32,803 nt of DNA from an uncultured Polaribacter sp. (GTDB lineage: Bacteria > Bacteroidota > Bacteroidia > Flavobacteriales > Flavobacteriaceae), in NCBI GenBank assembly GCA_913020555.1, contig CAJWAC010000021.1:1-32803 (forward strand). The letters run 5' to 3'. Positions 1 to 16,370 of this stretch are shown piece by piece. The notes beneath the pieces were generated by a model, which was not told the origin of the DNA, searched no databases, and worked only from the letters and a program-made list of their open reading frames with translations. Every line of letters begins with the position of its first letter. Position 1 is the stretch's first letter. The position numbers and the translations under genes are program-made.

Positions 1-877
1 TTCCAGCTGTTATAATTCCGAATTTATCGTGATTGCCCTGAACGGTTATCTTATTAATAGGGTTACTAGCTAAAAAATGTTTAGCAGCTGTAATACGACC
101 TAGATGAATTTCTTTTTCTGTCGGTAAACTATGGTGTCCTACTAATTTAGCATTTTGTGTATGCTTCCATGGTTGGCCATTATAAGTAAAATCAGGTATA
201 GTAATATTGACTCGTTGCGAATCCACAAAAGCACTACCAAATCCATCAGCAATATCTGTGACGATTTTAAATCCAGACCATAGACCAGAGTATCTTGACA
301 TTTCATAGGCATAACGACCTAAATCAAGAATTTCTTGTACATTACCTGGATAAAATATAGGCATCATCGCATCAAATAATGCCGGCTCAGATTGTGAAGG
401 TAGTGTAGACGATTTACAAGATGGATCATCCCCTGCTACTGCAAGCACTCCACCATTTTTACCTACTCCCAAGAAGTTGGCATGTCTAAATATATCTCCA
501 GATCTATCAACGCCAGGTGCTTTTCCATACCACATACCTAAAACACCATCATATTTTACATTGGATACCATCCCAGCCATTTGACTTCCATAAATTAAAG
601 TGGCTCCTAAATCTTCATTAACACCAGGAATAAATTTGACATTATGTTCATCCAACAGTTTTTTATTTTTTACAAGATTGATATCTAAGGTTCCAACTGG
701 AGAGCCACGATACCCAGATACTAATGTTCCAGTGTTAATACCTTTAATAAGGTCTGCTCTGTGTTGGTCAAGAAGCAATCTGACGAGTGCTTGTATACCC
801 GATAAAATCACTCTACCTTCAAATAGAGTATATTTGTCATTGAGACTAAAATTAGTCTTTAGCATTTGTCCTGTCAT
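1..877 (-). CDS. Indolepyruvate:ferredoxin oxidoreductase family protein, N-terminal part (runs off left edge)
   Basis: An open frame reads from an ATG at 877 to the window edge without a stop, giving 292 residues. Family members oxidatively decarboxylate aryl-pyruvates to aryl-acetyl-CoA using thiamine diphosphate and iron-sulfur clusters. Visible landmarks match the start of the long fused form of the family: YTLFEGRVILSGIQALVRL (residues 16-34), SGYRGSPVGTLD (54-65) and the GMWYGKAPGVDRSGD segment (114-128), followed by GDDPSCKSSTLPSQSE (149-164). The remaining domains (2-oxoacid-binding gamma domain and the rest) would lie beyond position 1. An in-frame ATG at 865 is an alternative start. 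The hydrolase gene upstream ends only 24 bases away on the same strand, so the two are probably cotranscribed. Substrate is not known from sequence. If the 3150 junction is an assembly error, this gene may not belong to the same chromosome position as the rest of the window. Confidence 0.85.
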   Translation of the reverse strand, partial: MTGQMLKTNFSLNDKYTLFEGRVILSGIQALVRLLLDQHRADLIKGINTGTLVSGYRGSPVGTLDINLVKNKKLLDEHNVKFIPGVNEDLGATLIYGSQMAGMVSNVKYDGVLGMWYGKAPGVDRSGDIFRHANFLGVGKNGGVLAVAGDDPSCKSSTLPSQSEPALFDAMMPIFYPGNVQEILDLGRYAYEMSRYSGLWSGFKIVTDIADGFGSAFVDSQRVNITIPDFTYNGQPWKHTQNAKLVGHHSLPTEKEIHLGRITAAKHFLASNPINKITVQGNHDKFGIITAG

Positions 878-901
878 ATAAGTTGTGTAATAATTGCCTA
901 G

Positions 902-1801
902 TTACTTGCTAGTCAATTTAAAGATTTTTTTCATGGATTCTACAACTTTTTCGGGTGATTCTTGTTGAACAAAATGACCAGCATCAGTTTTCACCGTTTT
1001 AGCTTGAGGTAATAATCTTTCTGTCCTTCTTCTCAACTTCCACATCACTGGGTCATTCATTCCCCAAACAATCTCAGCTGGTCCTTTGTATGACTGTAAA
1101 AACTCTTCCACTTCTTTTTCTATAGGAACACTGGGATGGAGCATATTATTAGGAACCATACGAGCTAAAGCAAGTGGTGCTGTATTATCTCTGAATTTTC
1201 TTAATGGATACTTATAGCTCTTTAAATCTTCTTTTGAATAAGAATTAGGAATACCTTGGAATTGCTTTAAAGCAGATAGTGGAAAATTAAAAACTCTAAA
1301 CAATAAATCGCTTATAATAGGAGCCTGAGACAGTCCATGAAACCAAGTCGGAGTAAATCCGTCTTTTGGCGCCGTTACTGATGTATTCATTATTACTAAT
1401 CCGTCAATTTTTTTACCTGCTCTCATCGCACCAGCAACACCAATCATACCGCCCCAATCATGAATTACCAATCCAACAGAGTCTTCTTCAATTGTTTTAA
1501 AAAAACTAGTCATCCATTCTGTATGAGCTTCCAAAGAATGTTCATTAATTTTAATTTTATCAGAAAATCCAAATCCAATTAAGTCTGGTACAATCAATCT
1601 AGCAGAAACATTATCAAGCTGATCTAATACTTTTTTATATAAATATCCCCACATAGGATTACCATGAACAAGAACAATAGGTTTACCGCTTCCCTTCTCC
1701 ATAACATGCATCTTTTTTGTACCTACACTAATATCATAATGATTATAAGGCAATTGTTGTAAAAGCCATTCAGGAATTTGGTTATAAGATTGCTTATTCA
1801 T
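902..1801 (-). CDS. Alpha/beta hydrolase, haloalkane dehalogenase-like
   Basis: A 299-residue single-domain alpha/beta-fold hydrolase. With the start at 1801 (MNKQSYNQIPEWL), it carries the oxyanion/halide motif HGNP (46-49), a nucleophile elbow HDWGG with Asp115 in place of Ser and Trp116 beside it, a beta-7 Asp250 in WGMNDP, and catalytic His276 in GHFVQQESPE. Asp-His-Asp plus an Asn48/Trp116 pair is the pattern known for haloalkane dehalogenases (subfamily III type), which release halide from alkyl halides via an alkyl-enzyme ester. Related hydrolases with other substrates share much of it. The frame is open upstream to 1885, but those 28 codons read through a poly-T stretch and do not resemble family N-termini, so the inner ATG is preferred. 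The gene lies 24 bases ahead of the indolepyruvate oxidoreductase-like gene, suggesting one transcription unit. Actual dehalogenase activity is inference. Confidence 0.8.
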   Translation of the reverse strand: MNKQSYNQIPEWLLQQLPYNHYDISVGTKKMHVMEKGSGKPIVLVHGNPMWGYLYKKVLDQLDNVSARLIVPDLIGFGFSDKIKINEHSLEAHTEWMTSFFKTIEEDSVGLVIHDWGGMIGVAGAMRAGKKIDGLVIMNTSVTAPKDGFTPTWFHGLSQAPIISDLLFRVFNFPLSALKQFQGIPNSYSKEDLKSYKYPLRKFRDNTAPLALARMVPNNMLHPSVPIEKEVEEFLQSYKGPAEIVWGMNDPVMWKLRRRTERLLPQAKTVKTDAGHFVQQESPEKVVESMKKIFKLTSK

Positions 1802-2010
1802 ATGATTATAAAAAAAATAATAAAAAAAAGTTTTTAAAGCTTGACTAAAATGAAAAAAATTAAATAATTTACCGGTGCCAGCCAATCAGCTTTTCGAAAG
1901 CTTAAAGTATTTGCAAACAGTCTCTTTATTAGAGAGAAAATATACAATTATTACGTATAACTGTGTATTGAATTAATTAATTAACAAGGGTAAGAGTATT
2001 ATTTAGAATT
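1802..2010. promoter_or_regulatory. Divergent intergenic region between hydrolase and RNR-like start
   Basis: This 209-base gap separates two divergent genes and must hold promoters for both, assuming it is correctly assembled. A small perfect inverted repeat (AGCTTT, 1888-1893, and AAAGCT, 1897-1902, around a 3-base loop) and an AATTAATTAATTAA run near 1970-1983 are visible. No strict Bacteroidota -7 element (TAnnTTTG) was found on either strand, so promoter positions are not assigned. No cobalamin riboswitch was recognised ahead of the B12-type RNR. Confidence 0.3.
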
Positions 2011-5000
2011 ATGGCAGAAGAAATTAAAATAAATTTTCCTACGGAAAATGAAGCGAATCCGAATATCGATTCGGATCTTAAAAATAAAATCTTAGGATTC
2101 AATATCAAAGAATCAATGGATGAATCAAATCAAACAGACATAGATGTATGTCCAAAAGAATTTGAAATCGATAGATATTATAAAGATGACGATCTAGGCA
2201 AAAGTGTACTAGAAATGAAATATTTAGCACCATGGGAAAAAAATCCATGGGATTTATGGAAACGTCAAGCTAAGGCACTAGCTAGTGTAGAAAAAACAAA
2301 AGAGCTTCAAGAAAAATGGGAAGCTGCATTCTTTGATGCACTGAAAAATTTTAAATTCGTACCAGGTGGAAGAATTATGCATGGTGCAGGTAGAGAAGAT
2401 ATTACCACAACATTAAACAATTGCTATGTTGTAGGGATTAAGACAGATTCTATTAAATCTATATATGATTGTGTTGTACAAGAAGCTATGACATATAAAT
2501 ATGGCGGTGGATGTGGACATGACTTGTCTATCTTAAGACCTTCAGGAGATGCTATCCTAGGTACGGGTGGTGACTCTTGTGGTCCTGTTGGTTTTATGAA
2601 CCTATTTAGTGAAAATACAAATACTATAGCACAGCATGGTAGACGTGGTGCGAATATGCAAACGTTACGAGTTGACCATCCTGATATTCAGAAGTTTATT
2701 GAAATCAAAACTGGTGATATCGATATGGTTAAATATTCCAATATATCTGTATTTTTAACAGATGATTTTATGGAAGCAGTTCAAACTGATTCTGATTTTA
2801 ATCTGCAATGGGGTGGCAAAGTTTATGAAACGGTAAACGCTAAAGAGCTTTGGATGAAGATTATCACACATGCTCACGCTAGCGCAGAACCAGGGCTACT
2901 CTTCTGGGATACAATGAAAAAATATCATAATGCAGAGTATTGTAGTCCTCTAATCTCAACTAATCCTTGTGCAGAACAACCTCTTCCTGATGGTGGATGT
3001 TGTAATCTTGGGGCTTTAAACCTAGAACGTTTTGTTGATGATAGCGGTAATTTTGATTTTGAAGGATTTCGTGAAACAACTGCTGTTGGAGCAAGATTCT
3101 TAGATAATGTAATAGATTACAATATTAATCGTCATGCACTTGAAGATCAAAAACAAAATGCAATCAATATTGCAAAAGAAAAAGGATGGAAAACCAAATT
3201 TACGACTAAAGATGGTCGCACGTTAGAACTTCAAAAAGTAGTTAACGGTAAGCCTATATACTACACTACTTTTAATGTAGCTGCTGCAAAATCTACAAGA
3301 GTAGATCATTTAAACTCTGGAGGATCTTTAGGCTTAAATTTAGATGGTCAAAACATGACTGCATACGTTTGGGATGGCGGTATTGCAAGAGCATCACATC
3401 AAGAATATGACGGAGCTGGAGGAAGCAATAGGTTTTCTAGCGGAGATTCTGCTTCTCTAAATTATCATGCTGCCCACGTAACGGGAACCATTATTGCATC
3501 TGGAGTTGTAGCGAACGCAAAAGGTATGGCGCCTCAAGCTAAAGCAATAGGTTATGATTGGAACAGTGATTTAGCAGAAGCAACATCGGCCGCTGCAAAT
3601 GGAATGTTAATTTCAAACCACTCTTATGGTTATGCTGCAAGAAATCAACAAGGACAGGTTCAGTTACCTCAATATTTCTTTGGTGGTTATATCGCTGATT
3701 CTAGAGACTGGGATAATTTAATGTTTAATGCTCCAAACTATTTAATGGTAGTAGCTGCGGGTAATGATGGCTCCGATAACACTGCAAATAACAATCCAAC
3801 TGGTGGATCTGGATTTGATAAACTAACAGGGCATTCAACGTCAAAAAACAACTTAGTTGTTGCGGCTGCCAATGATGCAAATATTGATTCAAACGGAAAC
3901 TTTATAAGCACTACAATTGCTAGTTTTAGTAGTGAAGGTCCTACTGATGATTTTAGAATCAAGCCAGATATTGCTGGAAATGGAGTTTCAGTATATTCTA
4001 CCTATGACTCAAGTAATACAGCATATAATTCAATTTCTGGAACATCAATGGCTTCTCCAAATGTAACTGGATCTTTAGTTTTATTACAACAGCATCATAA
4101 TAATCTTAATAACTCATACATGAAGGCTGCAACCTTAAAGGGATTGGCACTTCACACAGCGGATGATTCTGGTGTTTCTGGTCCAGATGCTGTCTTTGGA
4201 TGGGGTTTACTAAATACTAAGGCTGCTGCCGAAGCAATTTCAAATGAAGGAAATGAATCAAAAATAGAAGAATTGACATTAACTTCAGGACAAACTTATA
4301 GTATTACTGTTGATTCTGATGGAATAAACCCTTTATTAGCGTCTATTTCTTGGACAGATAGAGCAGGAACTGCAAATACTGGAACTGTAAACCTTACAAC
4401 TCCAGTATTAGTTAATGATTTAGATATTAGAGTAACCAAAGGAGGAACTGCATATTTGCCTTATAAATTAACTGGAGCTACCTCAAGTGCTAAACAAGAC
4501 AACAATGTAGATCCTTTTGAAAGAGTTGATATAGAAAATGCTTCAGGAACTTACACAATTACAGTAACAAACAAGGGTTCCTTAGTTGGTGGAAGCCAAA
4601 ATTATTCATTAATTGTAACAGGTTTAACTGGAACCCCTGTGGTTTGTAACGCAACAACCCCTAATGGACTTGCTATTGATGGTTTTGGATCTTCAACAGC
4701 TACAGTTTCTTGGAATGCAGTAACAGGGACTTCTTATGATTTTAGAATTCGTCAAACAGGAACTTCTTCTTGGACTAATTTAGCTGCTTCAGGAACTTCA
4801 ATTTCTTTAACAGGATTATCTCCTCAAACCTCTTATGAGGTTCAAGTAAGAAGTAAATGTCCAAATAATACAACCTCTTCATATTCTAATTCTGTTAGTT
4901 TTACAACTACAGAAGTTCAATTAAACTACTGTACTTCCAATGGAAATAGTGTGGCTGATGAATATATTAGTAACGTTGCTCTTGGTAGTATCAATAATAC

Positions 5001-6663
5001 AACTGGAGCGTCTTCGAGTGGTTATGCAGATTATACTTCGCAATCTACAAACTTAATAAAAGGAACTTCTTCAACAATATCTATAACTCCAACTTGGACA
5101 GGAACTTTATATAATGAGGGCTATGCTGTATTTATAGATTATAATAAAGATGGAGATTTTGCAGATAGTGGAGAAACAGTTTGGACAAGATCAGCTTCAC
5201 AAAGTAATCCAGTTAGTGGTTCTTTTACTGTACCAACATCTGCAATTGCAGGAACAACTAGAATGCGAGTTGTAATGCAATATAATGCAATTCCTAATTC
5301 TTGCGGCTCTTATAATTATGGAGAAACAGAAGATTATACTGTAAATATCACTGCGGGTGTAGCAGACACAACAGCGCCAATAATTACTTTATTGGGTAGC
5401 TCAACAATAAACTTGGAGGTGGGTGATTCATTTTCTGATCCAGGAGCAACAGCATCGGACAATATAGATGGAAACTTAACAGCTAATATCGTAGTTACAG
5501 GTACTGTAAATACAGCTATTGCAGGAACGTACACCTTAAATTATAATGTAAGTGACGCAGCAGGAAATGCAGCAACAGAAGTTTCTAGGTCTATAAATGT
5601 TGAAAGTACTGTTGATACTCAAGCACCAACAGCTCCAACAAATTTAACAGCTTCAAATATAACAGAAACAACAGCCTCTTTATCTTGGAGCGCCTCAACA
5701 GATAATGTTGGTGTAACAGCGTATGAGGTGTTTAGTAGTGGAATAAGTATTGGATCGGTAACCTCTACAGGTGCAAATATTACTGGTTTGGTTGCTAATA
5801 CAACCTATTCTTACACAGTTAGTGCAAAAGATGCTGCTGGAAATGTATCCTCTACAAGCAATACAGAAACATTTACTACTGCTGGAGGTTCTCAAGGTTC
5901 TACAACTACATTACACGAAGGCTTCTTTGAATCTGGATGGGATGGTTGGTCTGATGGAGGATCTGACTGTTTTAGATATAGTGGTACGCGCTCATATGAA
6001 GGAAATTACTCTATACGTATAAGAGATAATTCTGGAACTGCTTCCGCAATGACATCTCCAACATTTAACTTAACAAGTTATGATGCTGTTGAGGTTGAGT
6101 TCTATTTTTATTCATATTCTATGGAAAATAATGAAGATTTCTGGTTGCGATTCTACAACGGTTCATCATGGTCTACTGTTGGGACTTGGGCAAGAGGAAC
6201 ATCCTTCGAAAATAATAACTTTTATTCTGCAACTGTTACGTTAAACAGTTCTGATGTGAATTTTGCTTCAAATTCAGCATTTAGATTTCAAAATGATGCC
6301 AGTGGAAATGCAGATCATATTTATATTGATCAGGTTAAAATTAGAGGTATTATTGGTAATGGAGGTACCACAAATTCTATTAATTTAGTGTCTTCTTATA
6401 ATACTACTTTTACCTCAAATAGTAATTCATTTAATGGAGATGCAATGGTGTATCCAAACCCTGCTGTTAATGTTTTAAATATTAATTCTAATTTTGGAAC
6501 TATAAAATCTAAATATAGAATTACAAATCTTTTAGGTCAGGTAATTAGCGCTGGAACTATTCAAAATAATTCTGTTGATATTACTAATTTAAAACGAGGA
6601 ATTTATTTAATTGAACTTACAGATGAAGAAGAAACATTCACTCAAAAGTTTATTAAACAATAA
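2011..6663 (+). CDS. Chimeric ORF: N-terminal class II ribonucleotide reductase joined to a T9SS-secreted S8 peptidase
   Basis: Residues 1 to about 384 are the first half of a class II, adenosylcobalamin-type ribonucleotide reductase: Cys138 in TLNNCYVV, the QHGRRGAN loop, and NPCAE with Asn318, Cys320 and Glu322. The rest of the radical barrel and the C-terminal cysteines are absent. From about residue 381 the frame is a subtilisin-like (S8) peptidase with Asp455 (VWDGG), His486 (YHAAHVTG), oxyanion Asn585 (AAGNDG) and Ser679 (GTSMASP). After this come a beta-sandwich region (about 750-870), FN3 (about 881-970), a GEVED domain (about 973-1113), a DUF5011/HYR-like domain (1119-1200), a second FN3 (about 1205-1290), a MAM-like jelly roll (about 1301-1448) and a type IX secretion sorting domain (1480-1550, starting VYPNPAVN). 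A T9SS cargo needs a Sec signal peptide and none is present, because RNR sequence replaces it. I read this as two genes falsely joined, not a working fusion. The peptidase itself is presumably extracellular or cell-surface. Confidence 0.9.
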   Translation: MAEEIKINFPTENEANPNIDSDLKNKILGFNIKESMDESNQTDIDVCPKEFEIDRYYKDDDLGKSVLEMKYLAPWEKNPWDLWKRQAKALASVEKTKELQEKWEAAFFDALKNFKFVPGGRIMHGAGREDITTTLNNCYVVGIKTDSIKSIYDCVVQEAMTYKYGGGCGHDLSILRPSGDAILGTGGDSCGPVGFMNLFSENTNTIAQHGRRGANMQTLRVDHPDIQKFIEIKTGDIDMVKYSNISVFLTDDFMEAVQTDSDFNLQWGGKVYETVNAKELWMKIITHAHASAEPGLLFWDTMKKYHNAEYCSPLISTNPCAEQPLPDGGCCNLGALNLERFVDDSGNFDFEGFRETTAVGARFLDNVIDYNINRHALEDQKQNAINIAKEKGWKTKFTTKDGRTLELQKVVNGKPIYYTTFNVAAAKSTRVDHLNSGGSLGLNLDGQNMTAYVWDGGIARASHQEYDGAGGSNRFSSGDSASLNYHAAHVTGTIIASGVVANAKGMAPQAKAIGYDWNSDLAEATSAAANGMLISNHSYGYAARNQQGQVQLPQYFFGGYIADSRDWDNLMFNAPNYLMVVAAGNDGSDNTANNNPTGGSGFDKLTGHSTSKNNLVVAAANDANIDSNGNFISTTIASFSSEGPTDDFRIKPDIAGNGVSVYSTYDSSNTAYNSISGTSMASPNVTGSLVLLQQHHNNLNNSYMKAATLKGLALHTADDSGVSGPDAVFGWGLLNTKAAAEAISNEGNESKIEELTLTSGQTYSITVDSDGINPLLASISWTDRAGTANTGTVNLTTPVLVNDLDIRVTKGGTAYLPYKLTGATSSAKQDNNVDPFERVDIENASGTYTITVTNKGSLVGGSQNYSLIVTGLTGTPVVCNATTPNGLAIDGFGSSTATVSWNAVTGTSYDFRIRQTGTSSWTNLAASGTSISLTGLSPQTSYEVQVRSKCPNNTTSSYSNSVSFTTTEVQLNYCTSNGNSVADEYISNVALGSINNTTGASSSGYADYTSQSTNLIKGTSSTISITPTWTGTLYNEGYAVFIDYNKDGDFADSGETVWTRSASQSNPVSGSFTVPTSAIAGTTRMRVVMQYNAIPNSCGSYNYGETEDYTVNITAGVADTTAPIITLLGSSTINLEVGDSFSDPGATASDNIDGNLTANIVVTGTVNTAIAGTYTLNYNVSDAAGNAATEVSRSINVESTVDTQAPTAPTNLTASNITETTASLSWSASTDNVGVTAYEVFSSGISIGSVTSTGANITGLVANTTYSYTVSAKDAAGNVSSTSNTETFTTAGGSQGSTTTLHEGFFESGWDGWSDGGSDCFRYSGTRSYEGNYSIRIRDNSGTASAMTSPTFNLTSYDAVEVEFYFYSYSMENNEDFWLRFYNGSSWSTVGTWARGTSFENNNFYSATVTLNSSDVNFASNSAFRFQNDASGNADHIYIDQVKIRGIIGNGGTTNSINLVSSYNTTFTSNSNSFNGDAMVYPNPAVNVLNINSNFGTIKSKYRITNLLGQVISAGTIQNNSVDITNLKRGIYLIELTDEEETFTQKFIKQ
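3142..3171 (+). other. Probable chimeric junction between RNR and S8 peptidase
   Basis: Protein similarity changes here from RNR (ending ...NRHALEDQKQNA) to S8 peptidase propeptide (QNAINIAKEKGW...). Codons 380-384 (QKQNA, bases 3148-3162) could belong to either parent: class II RNRs usually read roughly QxxNA here before a conserved RR-GLG stretch that is missing, and flavobacterial S8 propeptides commonly have QKQxAI followed by an AKEKGW-like stretch. A short A-rich stretch shared by both parents would allow a false overlap during assembly, or an illegitimate recombination. Confidence 0.75.
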
Positions 6664-6717
6664 TCAAATGACATAAATAAATTATCCCCAATTAATAGTT
6701 TAACTATAAATGATCCT

Positions 6718-6746
6718 AAAAACCCAAGTTAACCCTTGGGTTTTTT
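6718..6746 (+). terminator. Rho-independent terminator after S8 peptidase
   Basis: Inverted repeat AACCCAAG (6721-6728) and CTTGGGTT (6735-6742) enclose a 6-base loop, with flanking A residues that pair into the T run. The stem is followed at once by TTTT G TTT. It sits 55 bases past the peptidase stop and just ahead of the ABC-F start at 6771, so it should insulate the two genes. Confidence 0.85.
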
Positions 6747-6770
6747 GTTTCTTTGTAAAAAATAAAACTT

Positions 6771-8633
6771 GTGAATTATTTATCTGTAGAAAATATTTCT
6801 AAATCTTATGGAGAACGCATCTTGTTTCAAGATATTTCTTTTGGAATTAATAAAGATCAAAAAATAGCTTTTGTTGCCAAAAACGGTACAGGAAAAACCT
6901 CTATATTAAATATAATTGCTGGCTTGGATAGCACAGATACAGGACAAATTGTAAGTAGAAAAGATATTTCTATTGCTTACTTGGCTCAAAAAGATGATTT
7001 AAACCCTAATTTAACCATAGAGGAAACTATTTTTGCTACTGATAATAAAATACTTTCGATAGTAAATCAATATGAAAAGGCATTAGAAAACCCAGAAGAA
7101 GCAGAAGCTTATCAAGCTGCTTTTGATTTAATGGATCAGTACAATGCTTGGGATTTTGAAACCCAATACAAACAGATTTTATCAAAATTAAAACTTGATG
7201 ATTTATCTCAAAAAATCTCATCACTTTCTGGAGGTCAAAGAAAGAGACTTTCTTTAGCTATTGTGCTAATTAGCAAACCTGACTTATTAATTCTAGATGA
7301 GCCTACAAATCACCTAGATTTAGAGATGATTGAATGGTTAGAATCTTTTTTTGCTAAAGAAAAAATAACCCTATTTATGGTTACGCACGATCGTTATTTT
7401 TTAGAACGTGTTTGTGATGAAATTTTAGAGTTAGATCAAGGGAAAATATATAAATATAAAGGAAACTACTCCTATTATTTACAAAACAAGGAAGAACGTT
7501 TAGCGCTAGAAGCTACAAATTTAAGCAAGGCAAAAAGTCTGTTTAAAAAAGAATTGGATTGGATGCGAAAGCAACCAAAAGCAAGAACTACCAAATCTAA
7601 ATCTAGAATTGATGATTTTTTTCAGATTAAAGAAAAAGCACATCAGCGAAGAAAAGACCATACAGTTCAATTAGAAATAAACATGGAGCGTTTAGGAAGT
7701 AAAATTCTTGAACTACATAAAATTTATAAATCATTTGATGATAAAAAGATTTTAGATGGCTTCGATTATGTCTTTAAACGTGGGGAGCGTATTGGGATTA
7801 TTGGTAAAAACGGAACTGGAAAATCATCATTTTTAAATATTATAACACAAAAAAATCCTGTTGATGCAGGAAAAGTTGTGGTTGGAGAAACCATTAAATT
7901 TGGTTACTACACACAGGCAGGAATCAACATAAAAGAAGGTCAAAAGGTTATAGAAGTAATTAAAGAATTTGGCGAATTTATTCCACTTACAAAAGGCAGA
8001 AAAATATCTGCTTCTCAGCTTTTAGAGCGCTTTTTATTTGATAAGAAAAAACAATATGACTTTGTTGAAAAACTTTCTGGAGGAGAACAAAAACGTTTGT
8101 ATTTATGTGCAGTTCTTATTCAAAATCCTAATTTCTTAATTTTAGATGAACCTACCAACGATTTGGATGTAGTTACACTAAATGTATTAGAAAACTTCTT
8201 GTTAGATTATCCTGGAAACTTGTTAGTAGTTTCTCACGATCGTTATTTTATGGATAAAATCGTAGATGCTTTATTCGTTTTTAGGGGTGAAGGTATTGTA
8301 GAAAATTTTCCTGGTAATTACTCTGATTTTAGAGCTTATGAAAACTCAAACCCTTATGAAAAAGTTGAAATTACAGCACAAAAAGTTGAGAAACCTGCAG
8401 AGAAAACAATAAAAACTACTTTAAGCTATAATGAAAAACGTGAATTTGGGGCATTAGAAAAAGAAATTGAAAGACTTCAAAATCAAAAAAAAAGAATTGA
8501 AAAACAATTTTTAAATGTTGAAATTGCACCTGATGACATTTCTAAAAAATCTGAAGAACTAGAAAAAATTATTAAATCTATTGATGTAAAAGAAGAACGT
8601 TGGTTTGAACTTTCTATGAAAATGGAAAATTAA
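6771..8633 (+). CDS. ABC-F family ATPase, Uup type
   Basis: A 620-residue soluble protein with two tandem ABC ATPase cassettes and no membrane segments, the hallmark of ABC-F proteins that act on the ribosome or in DNA transactions rather than in transport. Cassette 1 has Walker A AKNGTGKTS (36-44, with Ala in place of the usual first Gly), signature LSGGQRKR and Walker B ILDEPTNHLD. Cassette 2 has GKNGTGKSS, LSGGEQKR and ILDEPTNDLD. The inter-cassette linker carries ELDWMRKQPKARTTKSKSR, diagnostic of Uup, and the last 70 residues or so form a charged coiled coil as in Uup. The start is GTG at 6771, since no upstream in-frame ATG exists and family members start at this point. Uup is linked in E. 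coli to ribosome assembly and suppression of precise transposon excision. Its stop overlaps the convergent exonuclease stop by four bases. Confidence 0.93.
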   Translation: MNYLSVENISKSYGERILFQDISFGINKDQKIAFVAKNGTGKTSILNIIAGLDSTDTGQIVSRKDISIAYLAQKDDLNPNLTIEETIFATDNKILSIVNQYEKALENPEEAEAYQAAFDLMDQYNAWDFETQYKQILSKLKLDDLSQKISSLSGGQRKRLSLAIVLISKPDLLILDEPTNHLDLEMIEWLESFFAKEKITLFMVTHDRYFLERVCDEILELDQGKIYKYKGNYSYYLQNKEERLALEATNLSKAKSLFKKELDWMRKQPKARTTKSKSRIDDFFQIKEKAHQRRKDHTVQLEINMERLGSKILELHKIYKSFDDKKILDGFDYVFKRGERIGIIGKNGTGKSSFLNIITQKNPVDAGKVVVGETIKFGYYTQAGINIKEGQKVIEVIKEFGEFIPLTKGRKISASQLLERFLFDKKKQYDFVEKLSGGEQKRLYLCAVLIQNPNFLILDEPTNDLDVVTLNVLENFLLDYPGNLLVVSHDRYFMDKIVDALFVFRGEGIVENFPGNYSDFRAYENSNPYEKVEITAQKVEKPAEKTIKTTLSYNEKREFGALEKEIERLQNQKKRIEKQFLNVEIAPDDISKKSEELEKIIKSIDVKEERWFELSMKMEN

Positions 8634-9346
8634 ACACTTACAATGTTTTCTTTTGATAAAAGTGGCTCGTTATTAAAACGCAATAGAATTTGAGCAACTG
8701 CTATAGTATCTTTTTCACAATACGTTACAATGCGCTCTATATTTTTCTCTTGATAAAAAACTTTTGAAACTTCACTCCCATCAATATCATCTTTTGGTGA
8801 CGGAATCCCCAAAATTGAAGTCAATAATTTTAAAGAAGTGTAGTGTTTGTAATCTCCAAACTTCCATAGTTCTAAAGTATCTATATGAGGCACTTCCCAA
8901 GGTTTTTTACCAAATAAATTTAGATTTTTAGGCAATTCTATTTGATGAACAATCATTCTTCTTGCTATAAACGGAAAATCGAATTCCTTCCCATTATGTG
9001 CACATAAAATATGTGTTTTTTTAGCAAAATGATTATCTAATAAGATTTTAAAATCAGATAACAATTGATGTTCATCATCACCATAAAAAGAGGTGACCCT
9101 TAATTGTTTTTTATTATCAATGATAACAAAATAACCAACGGAAATACAAATTATTTTTCCAAACTCTGCCCAAATTCCTGCTTTTTCATAAAATTCTTCA
9201 GCTGTAAATTCCTCTTTACGTTGATATTTAGTTTTGGCTTCAAAAAGTAGTTTTATTTCTTCAGAAACATTACCCCAATTTTCTTCTTGAGGAACGGTTT
9301 CTATATCCAAAAAAAGGATGTTATTTAATTTATAAGTAAGATTCAT
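8630..9346 (-). CDS. PolB-like 3'-5' exonuclease (DEDDy)
   Basis: A 238-residue protein that is essentially a single RNase H-fold exonuclease domain. The four DEDDy motifs are present: Asp14 and Glu16 in FLDIET (Exo I), Asp123 in AHNGKEFDFPF (Exo II), and Tyr209/Asp213 in YCEKD (Exo III). This matches the predicted 3'-5' exonuclease family related to the proofreading domain of family B DNA polymerases (PF10108-like), expected to degrade DNA or RNA 3' ends with two metal ions. No polymerase domain follows. It is convergent with the ABC-F gene; the two stop codons interlock over 8630-8633. Upstream it faces the two-component operon. A TATATTTA element at 9379-9372 on its strand, about 25 bases ahead of the ATG, differs by one base from the Bacteroidota -7 consensus TAnnTTTG. 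Physiological substrate is unknown. Confidence 0.9.
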   Translation of the reverse strand: MNLTYKLNNILFLDIETVPQEENWGNVSEEIKLLFEAKTKYQRKEEFTAEEFYEKAGIWAEFGKIICISVGYFVIIDNKKQLRVTSFYGDDEHQLLSDFKILLDNHFAKKTHILCAHNGKEFDFPFIARRMIVHQIELPKNLNLFGKKPWEVPHIDTLELWKFGDYKHYTSLKLLTSILGIPSPKDDIDGSEVSKVFYQEKNIERIVTYCEKDTIAVAQILLRFNNEPLLSKENIVSV

Positions 9347-9456
9347 AGCAATACAATTTCTTTTTCGAACATAAATATAGTGAAAAAGAGAAAGCTCTTA
9401 AAAACACACTGGTAATAATGTAAATAATTAGTGAAATTAAGTTGTACTTAATTCCT

Positions 9457-9485
9457 TAACATTAAGAATTTGGTTCTAACATTAA
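9457..9485 (+). promoter_or_regulatory. Direct repeat TAACATTAA x2 ahead of the response regulator, candidate operator
   Basis: The 9-mer TAACATTAA occurs at 9457-9465 and again at 9477-9485, starts 20 bases apart, which is about two helical turns. It lies 69-97 bases upstream of the regulator ATG at 9554. OmpR/PhoB-type regulators bind tandem direct repeats as head-to-tail dimers, so this could be an autoregulatory site. PhoB boxes usually have 11-base rather than 20-base spacing, so the match is not exact. Confidence 0.4.
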
Positions 9486-9553
9486 ATGATTGTAAAGAAT
9501 TTGCTTCTTTATTACAATTATCATTATTTTTGGTATATTCCATAAATATAAGT

Positions 9554-10252
9554 ATGAATAAAAAAGATATTAAAATTTTACTAGTTGACGATGAGCCAGA
9601 TATTTTAGAAATTATTGGATACAATTTAAGAAATGAAGGCTATCAAATTTTTACTGCAGAAAATGGTTTAAAGGCAATAAAATCTGCTAAAAAAAATCTT
9701 CCTCATCTTATTTTATTAGATATTATGATGCCAGAAATGGATGGCATAGAAGCTTGTGAAAAAATTAGAAAGATAAAATCTTTAGAAAATGTAATTATCT
9801 CTTTTTTAACTGCTAGAGGAGAAGACTACTCTCAAGTAGCCGGTTTTGAAGCTGGTGCTGATGATTACATTACAAAACCTATAAAACCAAAAGTTTTGGT
9901 TAGTAAGATAAAATCTTTACTTAGAAGATTAAAAACGGAAACTGAAAATAAAGAAACCTTAAAACTTGGAGACATCGTTATAGATAGAGACGAGTATGTT
10001 GTTTTTAAAGCTGGTAAAAAAATTGCTTTACCTAGAAAAGAATTTGAACTTTTTTCACTATTAACTTCAAAACCAGGAAAGGTTTTTAAAAGGGAAGTTA
10101 TTTTAGATACAGTTTGGGGAAATGAGGTTGTAGTTGGCGGCAGAACAATTGATGTTCATATTAGAAAATTGAGAGAAAAAATTGGAGACGATCACTTTAA
10201 AACTGTTAAAGGAGTTGGTTACAAATTTGTTTTATTGGGCACAGACCTTTAA
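9554..10252 (+). CDS. OmpR/PhoB-family response regulator
   Basis: A 232-residue DNA-binding response regulator. Receiver domain residues 5-122 contain the acidic pocket Asp12/Asp13 (LVDDEPD), phosphoacceptor Asp56 (LLDIMMPEMDG), Thr86 (FLTARGED) and Lys108 (DDYITKPIKP). The C-terminal winged helix (about 130-228) includes LPRKEFELFSLL, VWGNEVVVGGRTIDVHIRKLREKIG and TVKGVGYKF, typical of OmpR/PhoB. The frame is open from a TTG at 9470, but the ATG at 9554 gives the canonical MNKKDIKILLVDDE start and the longer version would translate the repeat-bearing upstream region. The kinase gene starts 21 bases after the stop, so the two form one operon and a cognate pair. Bacteroidota homologues are called PhoB- or RprY-like; the stimulus cannot be told from sequence. 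Confidence 0.93.
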   Translation: MNKKDIKILLVDDEPDILEIIGYNLRNEGYQIFTAENGLKAIKSAKKNLPHLILLDIMMPEMDGIEACEKIRKIKSLENVIISFLTARGEDYSQVAGFEAGADDYITKPIKPKVLVSKIKSLLRRLKTETENKETLKLGDIVIDRDEYVVFKAGKKIALPRKEFELFSLLTSKPGKVFKREVILDTVWGNEVVVGGRTIDVHIRKLREKIGDDHFKTVKGVGYKFVLLGTDL

Positions 10253-10272
10253 TGATATAAACTTATTACTAT

Positions 10273-11313
10273 TTGAAACTTAAAAAAACATACTCTTATG
10301 CATTGTTGTCTGCTATGTATTTAACTGCGCTAGCAATTGCCATAAGTTTAATTTCATATTTTATAATTAGTAAACATCTTGGTTTAGGTACTGTCATAGT
10401 TTCTGTAATTACTTTATTTATAATTTCCTTTTTTATCATTCAATATAGAACAGAACACTTTATATATAGAAGATTAAAAAAGTTATATGAAGAAGTTTCC
10501 ATATTAGATATTAATGATTTAAGAAGAGATTCTGCAAATACCGATATCGAGAAACTTTCTAAAAGCATGCAAAGCTTTGTAGAAGGAAAGCGCTTAGAAA
10601 TTAAAAGCTTAACGGATATAGACTCTTTTAGAAAAGATTTTTTAGGCAATGTTGCTCATGAATTAAAAACCCCTTTATTTACTGTACAAGGTTATATTTT
10701 AACATTGTTGGAAGGAGCAATTAATGATAAACAAATACGAATGAAGTATTTAGACAGAGCCAATAAGGGTGTTGAAAGACTTTTAGCTGTTGTTAAAGAT
10801 TTGGATATGATTACCAAGTTAGAAAATGAAGGAACTAAACTAAATATCGAAAATTTTAATATTCTAGAATTGGTTCAAAATATATTTGACTTGTTTGAGA
10901 TGAAAGCAAAAAAGAGAAATATTTCTTTATCTTTTGATAAAATCTATGAATTTCCGGTTTTTGTAAAAGGAGATGTTGAAAAGATTGAGCAAGTACTCAT
11001 TAATTTAATTGTAAATTCTATTAAATACGGAAAACCAAATGGAAATATAGTTTTTAGTGCAGAAAACTACTCTGATAGTAAGTTTATAATTAAAGTGGTG
11101 GATGACGGAGAAGGCATAAAAAAAGAGCACTTACGGCGTTTATTTGAACGTTTTTACAGGGTAGATCAAAGTAGATCTCGTGATCAAGGAGGATCTGGAT
11201 TAGGACTTTCAATAGTAAAGCATATTATTGAGGCTCACAACGAAAATATCTTCTTAAAAAGTACTTTTGGCAAAGGTTCTGAATTTTCATTTACTTTAGA
11301 AAAATCCAAATAA
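10273..11313 (+). CDS. Membrane sensor histidine kinase, PhoR-like, partner of the preceding regulator
   Basis: A 346-residue histidine kinase. Two closely spaced transmembrane helices (about 9-32 and 38-57) leave only a few residues outside the membrane, so there is no periplasmic sensor domain. A short linker follows, then HisKA with phosphoacceptor His129 in GNVAHELKTPL. The ATPase domain shows N-box Asn248 (LINLIVNSIKYG), G1 box VDDGEGI (277-283), F-box LFERFYRVDQ and G2 box GGSGLGLSIVKHII. The start is TTG at 10273; the next ATG (codon 15) would cut into the first membrane helix and the upstream ATG at 10253 runs into a stop at once. PAS and full HAMP domains are not apparent. The signal may be sensed within the membrane or through a partner protein such as a phosphate transporter, as PhoR does; this is inference. 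It converges on purD with 17 bases between stops. Confidence 0.9.
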   Translation: MKLKKTYSYALLSAMYLTALAIAISLISYFIISKHLGLGTVIVSVITLFIISFFIIQYRTEHFIYRRLKKLYEEVSILDINDLRRDSANTDIEKLSKSMQSFVEGKRLEIKSLTDIDSFRKDFLGNVAHELKTPLFTVQGYILTLLEGAINDKQIRMKYLDRANKGVERLLAVVKDLDMITKLENEGTKLNIENFNILELVQNIFDLFEMKAKKRNISLSFDKIYEFPVFVKGDVEKIEQVLINLIVNSIKYGKPNGNIVFSAENYSDSKFIIKVVDDGEGIKKEHLRRLFERFYRVDQSRSRDQGGSGLGLSIVKHIIEAHNENIFLKSTFGKGSEFSFTLEKSK

Positions 11314-12715: not shown

Positions 12716-14068
12716 CTAGTACGCCTTTTCTTCTTTAATGAATACATTTATAAAGGTTCGTACTATAATTTTAACATCTAAAATAAAAGACCAATTTTCG
12801 ATATAAAAAATATCTAATCTAACTCTATTTTTAATATCTGATGCCTTTATAACTTCACCTCTGTAACCACTAATCTGTGCCAATCCAGTAATACCAGGTT
12901 TTACCGAATTTCTTAACAGATAGTTTTCTACTTCTTTTACATATTTTTGAGTTTGTGCATTCATATGAGGTCTTGGCCCAACAATGCTCATATCGCCTAA
13001 TAATACATTAAAAAATTGCGGTAGTTCGTCTAAACTAGTTTTTCTTAAAAATGCGCCTACCTTTGTGATCCTTTTATCGTTTTTTGTTGCTGAAACCGTA
13101 TCCGCATTATTGTTCACCTTCATAGATCTCAATTTATAACATAAAAATTGGTTTCCATCAACACCATCTCTTTTTTGTTTAAAAAACAACGGGCCTTTTG
13201 AATCTAACCTAATAATTATCCATAGAATTGGAATTAACCAAGATAGTATAGTAATACATACGAGTAAAGAAAATACTATATCTAATATTCTTTTTTTGAT
13301 ATGAGTTTCTCTTTTTTCAAATGGTAACGGTTTTGGTTTTAATACTGGAATATTGCCCAAATATTCTAAAACAAAATCCTTACTGTAAATAGCCCTACTC
13401 TCAGGTAAAAAAGTAAGTTCTATATTATTCTCTTCAACAAACATCCTGATATTGCGTAGTTGTTTTTTTGAAATAGTTGCTGGATTGCAATAAATTTCGT
13501 CAATTTTATTGTCTTGTACATATTGTAAACCGTCTTTTGTTTTACCCAGATAGTATTGAGATTTATACTTTTCTTTTGAAAAAAAACCAATAAAACGAAT
13601 ACCAAATTTATTTTTTTCATAAAATAACTTTTCAAGTTTATCTGCTGAATTTATCTCACCAAAAAGAATAATATTTTTTAATTCTTCAGTATATAATTTT
13701 CTTGTTTTAAAAATATAAAAGCTTGTAAGTTTAAAGAAAGAAACAAAAAACACAATTAATGTGAAGATTTGAACTTGATCCCCAATAATTTTGCCTTCTT
13801 TGAAAAAACTAAAAAAACTTAAAAAGCCTAATAAAACTATAAAAAAATGAGAAGACAAAAGTAAAAGAACTTTACTAAAACCGTAATATTTTTTAACATT
13901 ATAGAAACCTGTATTATATGCAGAAAAAAGCCAGAAAAAAGTTATGTATACTAAAAAGTATACATCTAAATAATTCTTATTAGAAATAAAATATAGAATA
14001 ACATAAATAATTAGCAAATCTAAAATGATCTGAAAAAGCTTTCTAAGTAAAAATTTATCTTGTTTCAC
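12716..14068 (-). CDS. Polyprenyl-phosphate sugar-1-phosphate transferase (WcaJ/WbaP type), copy 1
   Basis: A 450-residue polyisoprenyl-phosphate hexose-1-phosphate transferase that would load the first sugar phosphate onto undecaprenyl phosphate in the inner membrane. The N-terminus has about four membrane helices, then a Rossmann-like middle region (about 130-250) and a membrane-anchored catalytic bacterial sugar transferase domain (about 258-450). Conserved elements are FKQKRDGVDGNQFLCYKLRSM, KTSLDELPQFFNVLLGDMS with the catalytic Asp-Glu, VGPRPH and VKPGITGLAQISGYRGE. It is the last gene of the locus, 171 bases after the GT2 gene, the only sizeable gap in the operon. It is clearly paralogous to the protein at 15015-16370, and both end EEKAY. 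The start is probably GTG at 14068, inside a tandem 9-base repeat; an in-frame TGA lies a little further upstream. Sugar specificity is unknown. Confidence 0.88.
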   Translation of the reverse strand: MKQDKFLLRKLFQIILDLLIIYVILYFISNKNYLDVYFLVYITFFWLFSAYNTGFYNVKKYYGFSKVLLLLSSHFFIVLLGFLSFFSFFKEGKIIGDQVQIFTLIVFFVSFFKLTSFYIFKTRKLYTEELKNIILFGEINSADKLEKLFYEKNKFGIRFIGFFSKEKYKSQYYLGKTKDGLQYVQDNKIDEIYCNPATISKKQLRNIRMFVEENNIELTFLPESRAIYSKDFVLEYLGNIPVLKPKPLPFEKRETHIKKRILDIVFSLLVCITILSWLIPILWIIIRLDSKGPLFFKQKRDGVDGNQFLCYKLRSMKVNNNADTVSATKNDKRITKVGAFLRKTSLDELPQFFNVLLGDMSIVGPRPHMNAQTQKYVKEVENYLLRNSVKPGITGLAQISGYRGEVIKASDIKNRVRLDIFYIENWSFILDVKIIVRTFINVFIKEEKAY

Positions 14069-15014: not shown

Positions 15015-16370
15015 TTAATATGCTTTTTCCTCTCCTTTAAAAATATTTAAAACAGTCTGAATAATTATTTTTATATCTAAAAAGAAAGACCAATTTTCAA
15101 TATAAAAAATATCTAAGCGTACTCTATTTTTAATATCAGATTTCTTTTTAATTTCTCCTCTATATCCGCTAATTTGGGCTAAACCTGTAATCCCTGGTTT
15201 TACGATATGCCTTTTTAAATAATCATTTACATCTTTTTGGTATTCTAAAGATAGTGTTTCTAGGTGTGGCCTTGGGCCAACAACACTCATGTCTCCAAAT
15301 AAAACATTAATAAATTGAGGCAATTCATCCATGCTAGTTTTTCTTAAAAAAGCTCCAATTTTAGTAATTCTAACGTCATTTTTAGTTGCGTGTACTTTAT
15401 CAGACTGAGAATTAATTTTCATAGATCTAAATTTGTAACAAACAAATTCGGTCCCATTAATACCTTCTCTTTTTTGTTTAAAAATTAAAGGTCCTTTAGA
15501 CTCTAACTTAACTATAACCCAAAGAATAGGCATTAACCAAGATAAAATAAATATGGATATAACTAATGAAAAACAAATATCGAAAATTCGTTTCTTGTAG
15601 AAATTCTCTGCAAAATCAAAAGGTAATTTTTGAACGTTTAACACCATTAAAGCATCGTCATAATACTCTATAGTTTGATTTTTACTATATAATTCAATGG
15701 TGTTAGGTATTAATTTTAGTACAATGTTTTTTTCTGTAGTAAATTTCTTAATAATATTAACTTGTTCTCTAGAATGTCCTTTTAAACTCAAGTAAATTTC
15801 ATCCACTTGATTATTTCTTGCATAATCCATGACATCGTAAAAATTTCCTCTGCGCTCAGTATTTTTGAAAACATTATCAGAAAAAAAACCCAGATATTTA
15901 TATCCTAAATTAGATTTACTTTTAAAGAGCCTTATAATATTTTTTGCAGATTCATCAAACCCCAATACAACTGCAGATCTAAGATTGTTGCCTAAAGCTC
16001 GGTATTTTTTAAGAATAAAAAACCATAACAACTTTACTACAGATATAACTAATAAAATCGATGAAAGAACTAATAAATCATCTTGAACAATATTACCTTT
16101 TCTAAAAACTCCAAAATATGCATAATATCCCAATATAAATATTACAAATTGTTTAAATAATAGATTAACTAATCTTAATATTCTTGTATGGCGATATACA
16201 TTGTAAAACCCTATAAAGTAAGATGTTAAAATCCAGAAAATTGATATATATTGTAAGAAATAAAAATTAAGGTAATACTTATTGTAAGTAAAATAAATAA
16301 TAAGAATAATTAATAATAAATCTATTATTAATTGTATAGGTTTCATAAATGAAGAATATCTTTTTTTCAA
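15015..16370 (-). CDS. Polyprenyl-phosphate sugar-1-phosphate transferase (WcaJ/WbaP type), copy 2
   Basis: A 451-residue paralogue of the protein at 12716-14068 with the same layout: about four N-terminal membrane helices, a Rossmann-like central region and a C-terminal catalytic domain. Key segments are FKQKREGINGTEFVCYKFRSM, KTSMDELPQFINVLFGDMS, VGPRPH and VKPGITGLAQISGYRGE, nearly identical to copy 1. The first halves differ much more than the catalytic halves. The listed TTG start at 16370 overlaps the GT4 stop (TTGA), suggesting translational coupling; an ATG at 16346 is an alternative. It should start repeat-unit synthesis by transferring a sugar-1-phosphate to undecaprenyl phosphate. 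Why the locus keeps two initiating enzymes is unclear: different first sugars, two glycans, or a redundant duplicate. Confidence 0.88.
   Translation of the reverse strand: MKKRYSSFMKPIQLIIDLLLIILIIYFTYNKYYLNFYFLQYISIFWILTSYFIGFYNVYRHTRILRLVNLLFKQFVIFILGYYAYFGVFRKGNIVQDDLLVLSSILLVISVVKLLWFFILKKYRALGNNLRSAVVLGFDESAKNIIRLFKSKSNLGYKYLGFFSDNVFKNTERRGNFYDVMDYARNNQVDEIYLSLKGHSREQVNIIKKFTTEKNIVLKLIPNTIELYSKNQTIEYYDDALMVLNVQKLPFDFAENFYKKRIFDICFSLVISIFILSWLMPILWVIVKLESKGPLIFKQKREGINGTEFVCYKFRSMKINSQSDKVHATKNDVRITKIGAFLRKTSMDELPQFINVLFGDMSVVGPRPHLETLSLEYQKDVNDYLKRHIVKPGITGLAQISGYRGEIKKKSDIKNRVRLDIFYIENWSFFLDIKIIIQTVLNIFKGEEKAY

Follow-up and report, generated by a model that had tools for sequence, protein, structure and literature searches.

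Is an open frame that reads as half a ribonucleotide reductase (RNR) followed by an exported protease a real fusion gene, or does it owe its existence to the joining of DNA from two organisms? The frame occupies positions 2011–6663 of the window, by which we mean the whole 32,803-nucleotide stretch analysed here, and it is single and uninterrupted (1550 codons, no stops). The contig belongs to a draft genome of 141 contigs that is 76.5% complete. We conclude that the 1550-aa ORF is almost certainly an artefact of a chimeric contig. On this reading, a Candidatus Neomarinimicrobiota cell that shared the sample or library would have supplied the first 3168 bases, and the T9SS-bearing host of the draft genome the remainder of the contig. 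The features are collected in Table 1.

Table 1. Features of the window and the evidence for each; positions are those of the window.
Feature	Position	Strand	Evidence
Foreign segment, Candidatus Neomarinimicrobiota DNA	1..3168		gapless alignment to L079 (NZWP01000012.1) 3991-7158
Indolepyruvate ferredoxin oxidoreductase-family gene, 5' part	2..877	-	NF009589, E 7e-105, profile positions 12-294 of 1170
Alpha/beta hydrolase, haloalkane dehalogenase-like	902..1885	-	same-length ORF at L079 4892-5875
Class II (B12-dependent) RNR gene, 5' part, Marinimicrobia	2011..3168	+	TIGR02504, residues 66-384; 98% protein identity to L079
Predicted false join, bases alike in both parents	3149..3168	+	19/20 to L079, 16/20 to L049 of G029
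S8 peptidase with T9SS sorting tail, start missing	3169..6663	+	Pfam/NCBIfam; DNA identity to G029
Native flank, four genes	6771..11313		collinear with G029 L115

Profile searches delimited the two parts of the ORF. The NCBIfam profile NrdJ_Z (TIGR02504, class II, B12-dependent) covers residues 66–384 at profile positions 4–346 of 606, and the Pfam RNR barrel domain is matched at positions 2–272 of 523. Because these matches end in mid-barrel, the rest of the barrel is absent from the ORF; with a TIGR02504 score of 303 bits, below the cut-off of 400 (399.95), the frame has neither the whole barrel nor the above-cut-off score by which a class II RNR is recognised. S8 peptidase sequence starts at about residue 387. 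It includes Peptidase_S8 (PF00082) at residues 480–732, above cut-off, then GEVED, Ig-like and fn3 domains on its C-terminal side, and finally a T9SS tail (TIGR04183) at residues 1480–1550, also above cut-off. Both the catalytic and the C-terminal sorting domain of a T9SS-exported S8 peptidase are therefore in the ORF, and export is predicted from sequence; an N-terminal export signal is lacking, the N-terminus being RNR and the peptidase's own start being absent. A sequence-only reading of this DNA had described residues 1 to about 384 as a class II RNR without the rest of its barrel, the remainder as an S8 peptidase with a T9SS tail, and both parts as incomplete. The profile matches agree with it, and both genes are whole elsewhere, the RNR in L079 and the peptidase in the same-genus genome G029.

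The relatives of the RNR half lie in another lineage. A pattern scan of a genome collection (84,980 species) with residues 1–384 found 81 stretches, 36 of which encode a relative; the best, L079 (NZWP01000012.1), is 98% identical across all 384 residues. Twenty-four of the 36 fall at 68–98% identity and the other 12 at 32–47%. By record title, the close 24 comprise 17 Marinimicrobia or Neomarinimicrobiota, one Legionellales, one Thaumarchaeota and five described just as bacteria. The Legionellales record (L088, NZJM01000055.1) and the Thaumarchaeota record (L097, DAHJ01000009.1) hold a Marinimicrobia-like RNR at 83–84% protein identity to the piece in the window, and they may be mislabelled or contaminated.

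At the DNA level, the likeness to L079 extends from the first base of the window to position 3168 as a single gapless block of 3168 bases with 98.58% identity (BLAST). The block recurs in L082 (94.6%), L081 (88.4%) and L080 (85.8%), where it reaches the first base of the window or stops at most two bases from it; the alignments of the last two contain small gaps. The sequence-only reading had suggested different origins for the two halves of the ORF, which holds, but the foreign piece is the whole of 1–3168: it consists of the front part of the RNR gene and the two genes to its left. The ferredoxin oxidoreductase-family gene is cut by the contig start and is whole in L079 (ORF 1340–4867, 1175 aa), where the RNR gene is whole too (794 aa). 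For the alpha/beta hydrolase, identity reaches at most 36% among the matches listed from 58 relatives (own genome excluded).

Two other sources of the RNR half were considered and rejected. A native RNR of the host genus does not fit, since across 58 genomes from the genus and order of the host the class II RNR matches reach just 35–41% identity, the remaining matches being lower or shorter. A phage source is contradicted by the 98% identity to Neomarinimicrobiota, against which phage matches are far weaker: a phage collection yielded 1573 records, the best place of each below 60% identity and at most 41.7% among the matches listed, and a scan of viral contigs, sensitive to close relatives only, gave no match. 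The draft itself yielded no further RNR large-subunit match at its 76.5% completeness. Searched with a 13-kb Marinimicrobia locus, it returned the window piece and four matches of 67–75% on contig C6, among the 40 of 239 candidates that were scored. A class I RNR native to the host is suggested by contig C102 (L125), where a class I small subunit is encoded at 3–1094, running off the contig end. At its N-terminus this subunit is extended by about 106 residues, which we take to resemble an ATP-cone.

The peptidase part follows the host's own genus. Its DNA is 80% identical to G029 across window positions 3149–5601, the protein is 87% identical over residues 7–390 of a 390-residue query, and seven genomes besides G029 carry it at 75–79% identity. 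In G029 the gene is whole (L115 9035–13228, 1397 aa) and starts 55 codons ahead of the first position homologous to the window. The order of genes behind the peptidase is the same in the window and in G029, with DNA identities of 80.5% (6718–9397) and 77.2% (9476–11313). From their translations, we assume that the four flanking genes encode an ABC-F-like protein, an exonuclease-like protein, a response regulator and a histidine kinase. Further along the window, the ORFs at 12717–13298 and 15016–15597 are 72% identical to each other in DNA across 582 bases and are likely a duplication; judging by their translations, they presumably resemble polysaccharide sugar transferases.

Neither parent was seen fused to the other in any of the relatives covered. 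RNR C-terminal sequence continues after the N half in all 36 loci of the pattern scan, across nearly all 410 C-terminal residues in 32 of them and partially in four distant ones (L111–L114), and no peptidase match lies beside the RNR half at any of the 36. In all 29 RNR loci kept from the host's relatives, RNR likewise continues and peptidase is absent. Conversely, the RNR half is absent from all 24 peptidase loci tested, with flanks of up to 1.5 kb (29 were fetched, the window's own apart). We also searched 199 genomes of the family, own included, with the protein of window 2911–3462, in which the join lies near residue 86. Some match was obtained in 114 of the 199, and among the matches listed none is end to end but the window's own. 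The others lie on one side of the join, which they overshoot, among the matches listed, by at most 28 residues to the left (a match over residues 58–182) and at most 10 to the right (residues 16–96). The sequence-only reading had proposed searching the two halves separately and looking for the same fusion in related genomes; the halves fall in different lineages, each with a whole gene, and the fusion did not recur among the loci tested and the matches listed. Within the literature library searched, no paper combined ribonucleotide reductase, fusion, subtilisin-like protease and type IX secretion.

These results bear directly on the idea of a working fusion enzyme, in which the RNR half would serve as a new N-terminal domain of the exported peptidase. 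The single open frame and the recognisable domains on either side are what such an enzyme would show. Yet the RNR half ends inside the barrel, at profile position 346 of 606, the N-terminus seen in the G029 peptidase is missing, and no second example appeared in the 36 and 29 RNR loci, in the 24 peptidase loci or among the matches listed from the 198 other genomes of the family. We give this idea practically no credence, and the existence of an RNR–peptidase fusion protein is unlikely.

The two parents meet within 20 bases. In BLAST alignments, the window matches its Marinimicrobia parent up to 3168 and its peptidase parent from 3149 on. Window positions 2901–3161 equal L079 base for base, a single mismatch follows at 3162, and the match then resumes to 3168. 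Seen from the other side, the window is like G029 at 3 of 20 positions in 3129–3148 and at 20 of 20 in 3169–3188, where only 6 of 20 agree with L079. Within 3149–3168 the likeness among 11 peptidase relatives is 11–16 of 20, versus 3–10 of 20 in the preceding block. The stretch is A-rich, so that part of this likeness may be a matter of composition; for that reason, and because the peptidase relatives are only 11–16 of 20 alike, it is not a proven exact overlap. Since our searches turned up no other genome of the host species, G029 is the nearest host-side comparison at the join, and the host's own sequence probably fits 3149–3168 even better than G029 does. The sequence-only reading had placed an A-rich join at 3148–3165, within a few bases of our location, and had held that it fits both parents; the likeness to L079 and G029 agrees with this, although composition may contribute.

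Base composition offered no help in locating the join. Values of 0.36, 0.32 and 0.35 were obtained for GC per kb ahead of it and of 0.38, 0.35 and 0.38 after it, with no change at the join itself. The mild difference in arginine codons that had been reported was confirmed (6 CGN of 12 in the RNR part, 7 CGN of 27 in the peptidase part). The k-mer comparison proposed alongside it failed, as neither GC nor 4-mers separate the two parts; composition being alike on either side of the join, this check carries no weight.

To see what lies on the far side of the gap, we turned to the host's own contig C13 (L124). To the left of the peptidase, G029 has a gene that, from its translation, presumably resembles a nucleotidyltransferase; an 88% identical counterpart lies on C13, at 3358–4371. 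C13 tracks G029 from its base 3345 outwards, up to L115 8668, and the window does so from L115 9201; because both track G029 on either side, C13 and the window contig are neighbours across 532 G029 bases, and these bases contain the peptidase start. The C13 end facing the gap consists of about 3 kb of foreign-looking DNA (from 1 to about 3025–3345). The border with native DNA falls within about 3025–3345, and GC in this end is 0.34–0.41, compared with 0.26–0.34 further in. On the opposite strand this end encodes an AddA/RecB-like helicase (434–3025). This helicase seems to lack its N-terminus, as the match begins near AddA profile position 350 at ORF residue 125–135. Among 38 relatives, the match that scores best reaches 32% identity, and short pieces reach up to 41%; a separate helicase frame of 1075 aa on draft contig C32 matches the C13 helicase at 31–36%. 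Both contig ends that should meet thus appear, by their sequence, to carry foreign-looking DNA. We further compared by composition both ends (24 in all) of 12 contigs out of the 141, picked because they had already been encountered in our searches. At the start of C76 (L145), GC is 0.46 in the first kb, 0.41 in the second and 0.31–0.34 thereafter, with a short ORF, maybe a truncated gene, beside positions 1–2000; on GC, it is possibly a third foreign contig end. This survey does not amount to a count of all foreign ends, because a foreign end such as that of the window goes unnoticed by composition.

The neighbouring contig also helps to weigh a real and very recent horizontal transfer, in which a Marinimicrobia chromosomal piece of at least 3.2 kb would have inserted in the peptidase gene of the T9SS-bearing host. 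Both genes would be broken by such an event and the fused frame would probably be dead. The frame is open and the assembly continuous across the join, as a transfer would leave them. However, a gapless DNA identity of 98.6% would require the event to be very recent, and for none of the three genes of 1–3168 did Pfam or NCBIfam give a match to a mobile-element family. The foreign piece runs off the contig start, so no second border with host DNA is visible, and the neighbouring C13 is interrupted at that very point, again with an end that looks foreign. No match spanning the join is among those listed from the 198 other family genomes. We regard a transfer as very improbable.

Collectively, these findings favour a chimeric contig. 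It is the best reading because the two sides belong to different lineages (Neomarinimicrobiota for 1–3168, same-genus genomes from 3149 onward), each gene occurs complete and on its own in the lineage it comes from (794 aa in L079, 1397 aa in L115), a short stretch of 20 bases is alike at the join (the host side judged by G029), no second example was found, and C13 has a foreign-looking end. The two sources would have been joined at the A-rich stretch, similar in both, probably while the library was made or the reads were assembled rather than inside a living cell. Such a join would keep the frame by chance, and the two truncated genes would therefore read as a single ORF. Speaking against a chimera, the frame is kept across the join (1 chance in 3), base 3162 differs from L079, the A-rich stretch is not a proven exact overlap, and composition is constant. 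The false assembly overlap suspected by the sequence-only reading is nonetheless supported by the two lineages, the whole parent genes and the short likeness now located. If the host is taken as Bacteroidota from its T9SS tails, the chimera would be one between phyla.

Read as an artefact, the ORF describes no new biology and is not a real feature. There is a risk that a 1550-aa ORF enters protein databases as an RNR–protease fusion, and that the draft is credited with a class II RNR belonging to another lineage. Because the end of C13, and possibly that of C76, looks foreign, the contig ends of this draft need checking before claims are made about its gene content.

Each part of the ORF can be compared with a known protein, and the contig with a known type of error. 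The GUNC paper (PMC8201837) presents misassembly that yields chimeric contigs as a known source of error in MAGs, relatively rare compared with mis-binning; like the chimeric contigs described there, the window would unite fragments of two sources on a single contig. As in class II NrdJ (TIGR02504), residues 66–384 fit the profile, and they are 98% identical to a Neomarinimicrobiota RNR; unlike the parent RNR, which is whole, the version in the ORF ends inside the barrel. With the G029 S8 peptidase bearing a T9SS type A sorting domain, the window shares the catalytic, GEVED, Ig-like and fn3 domains and the T9SS tail, whereas it is without the first ~55 residues.
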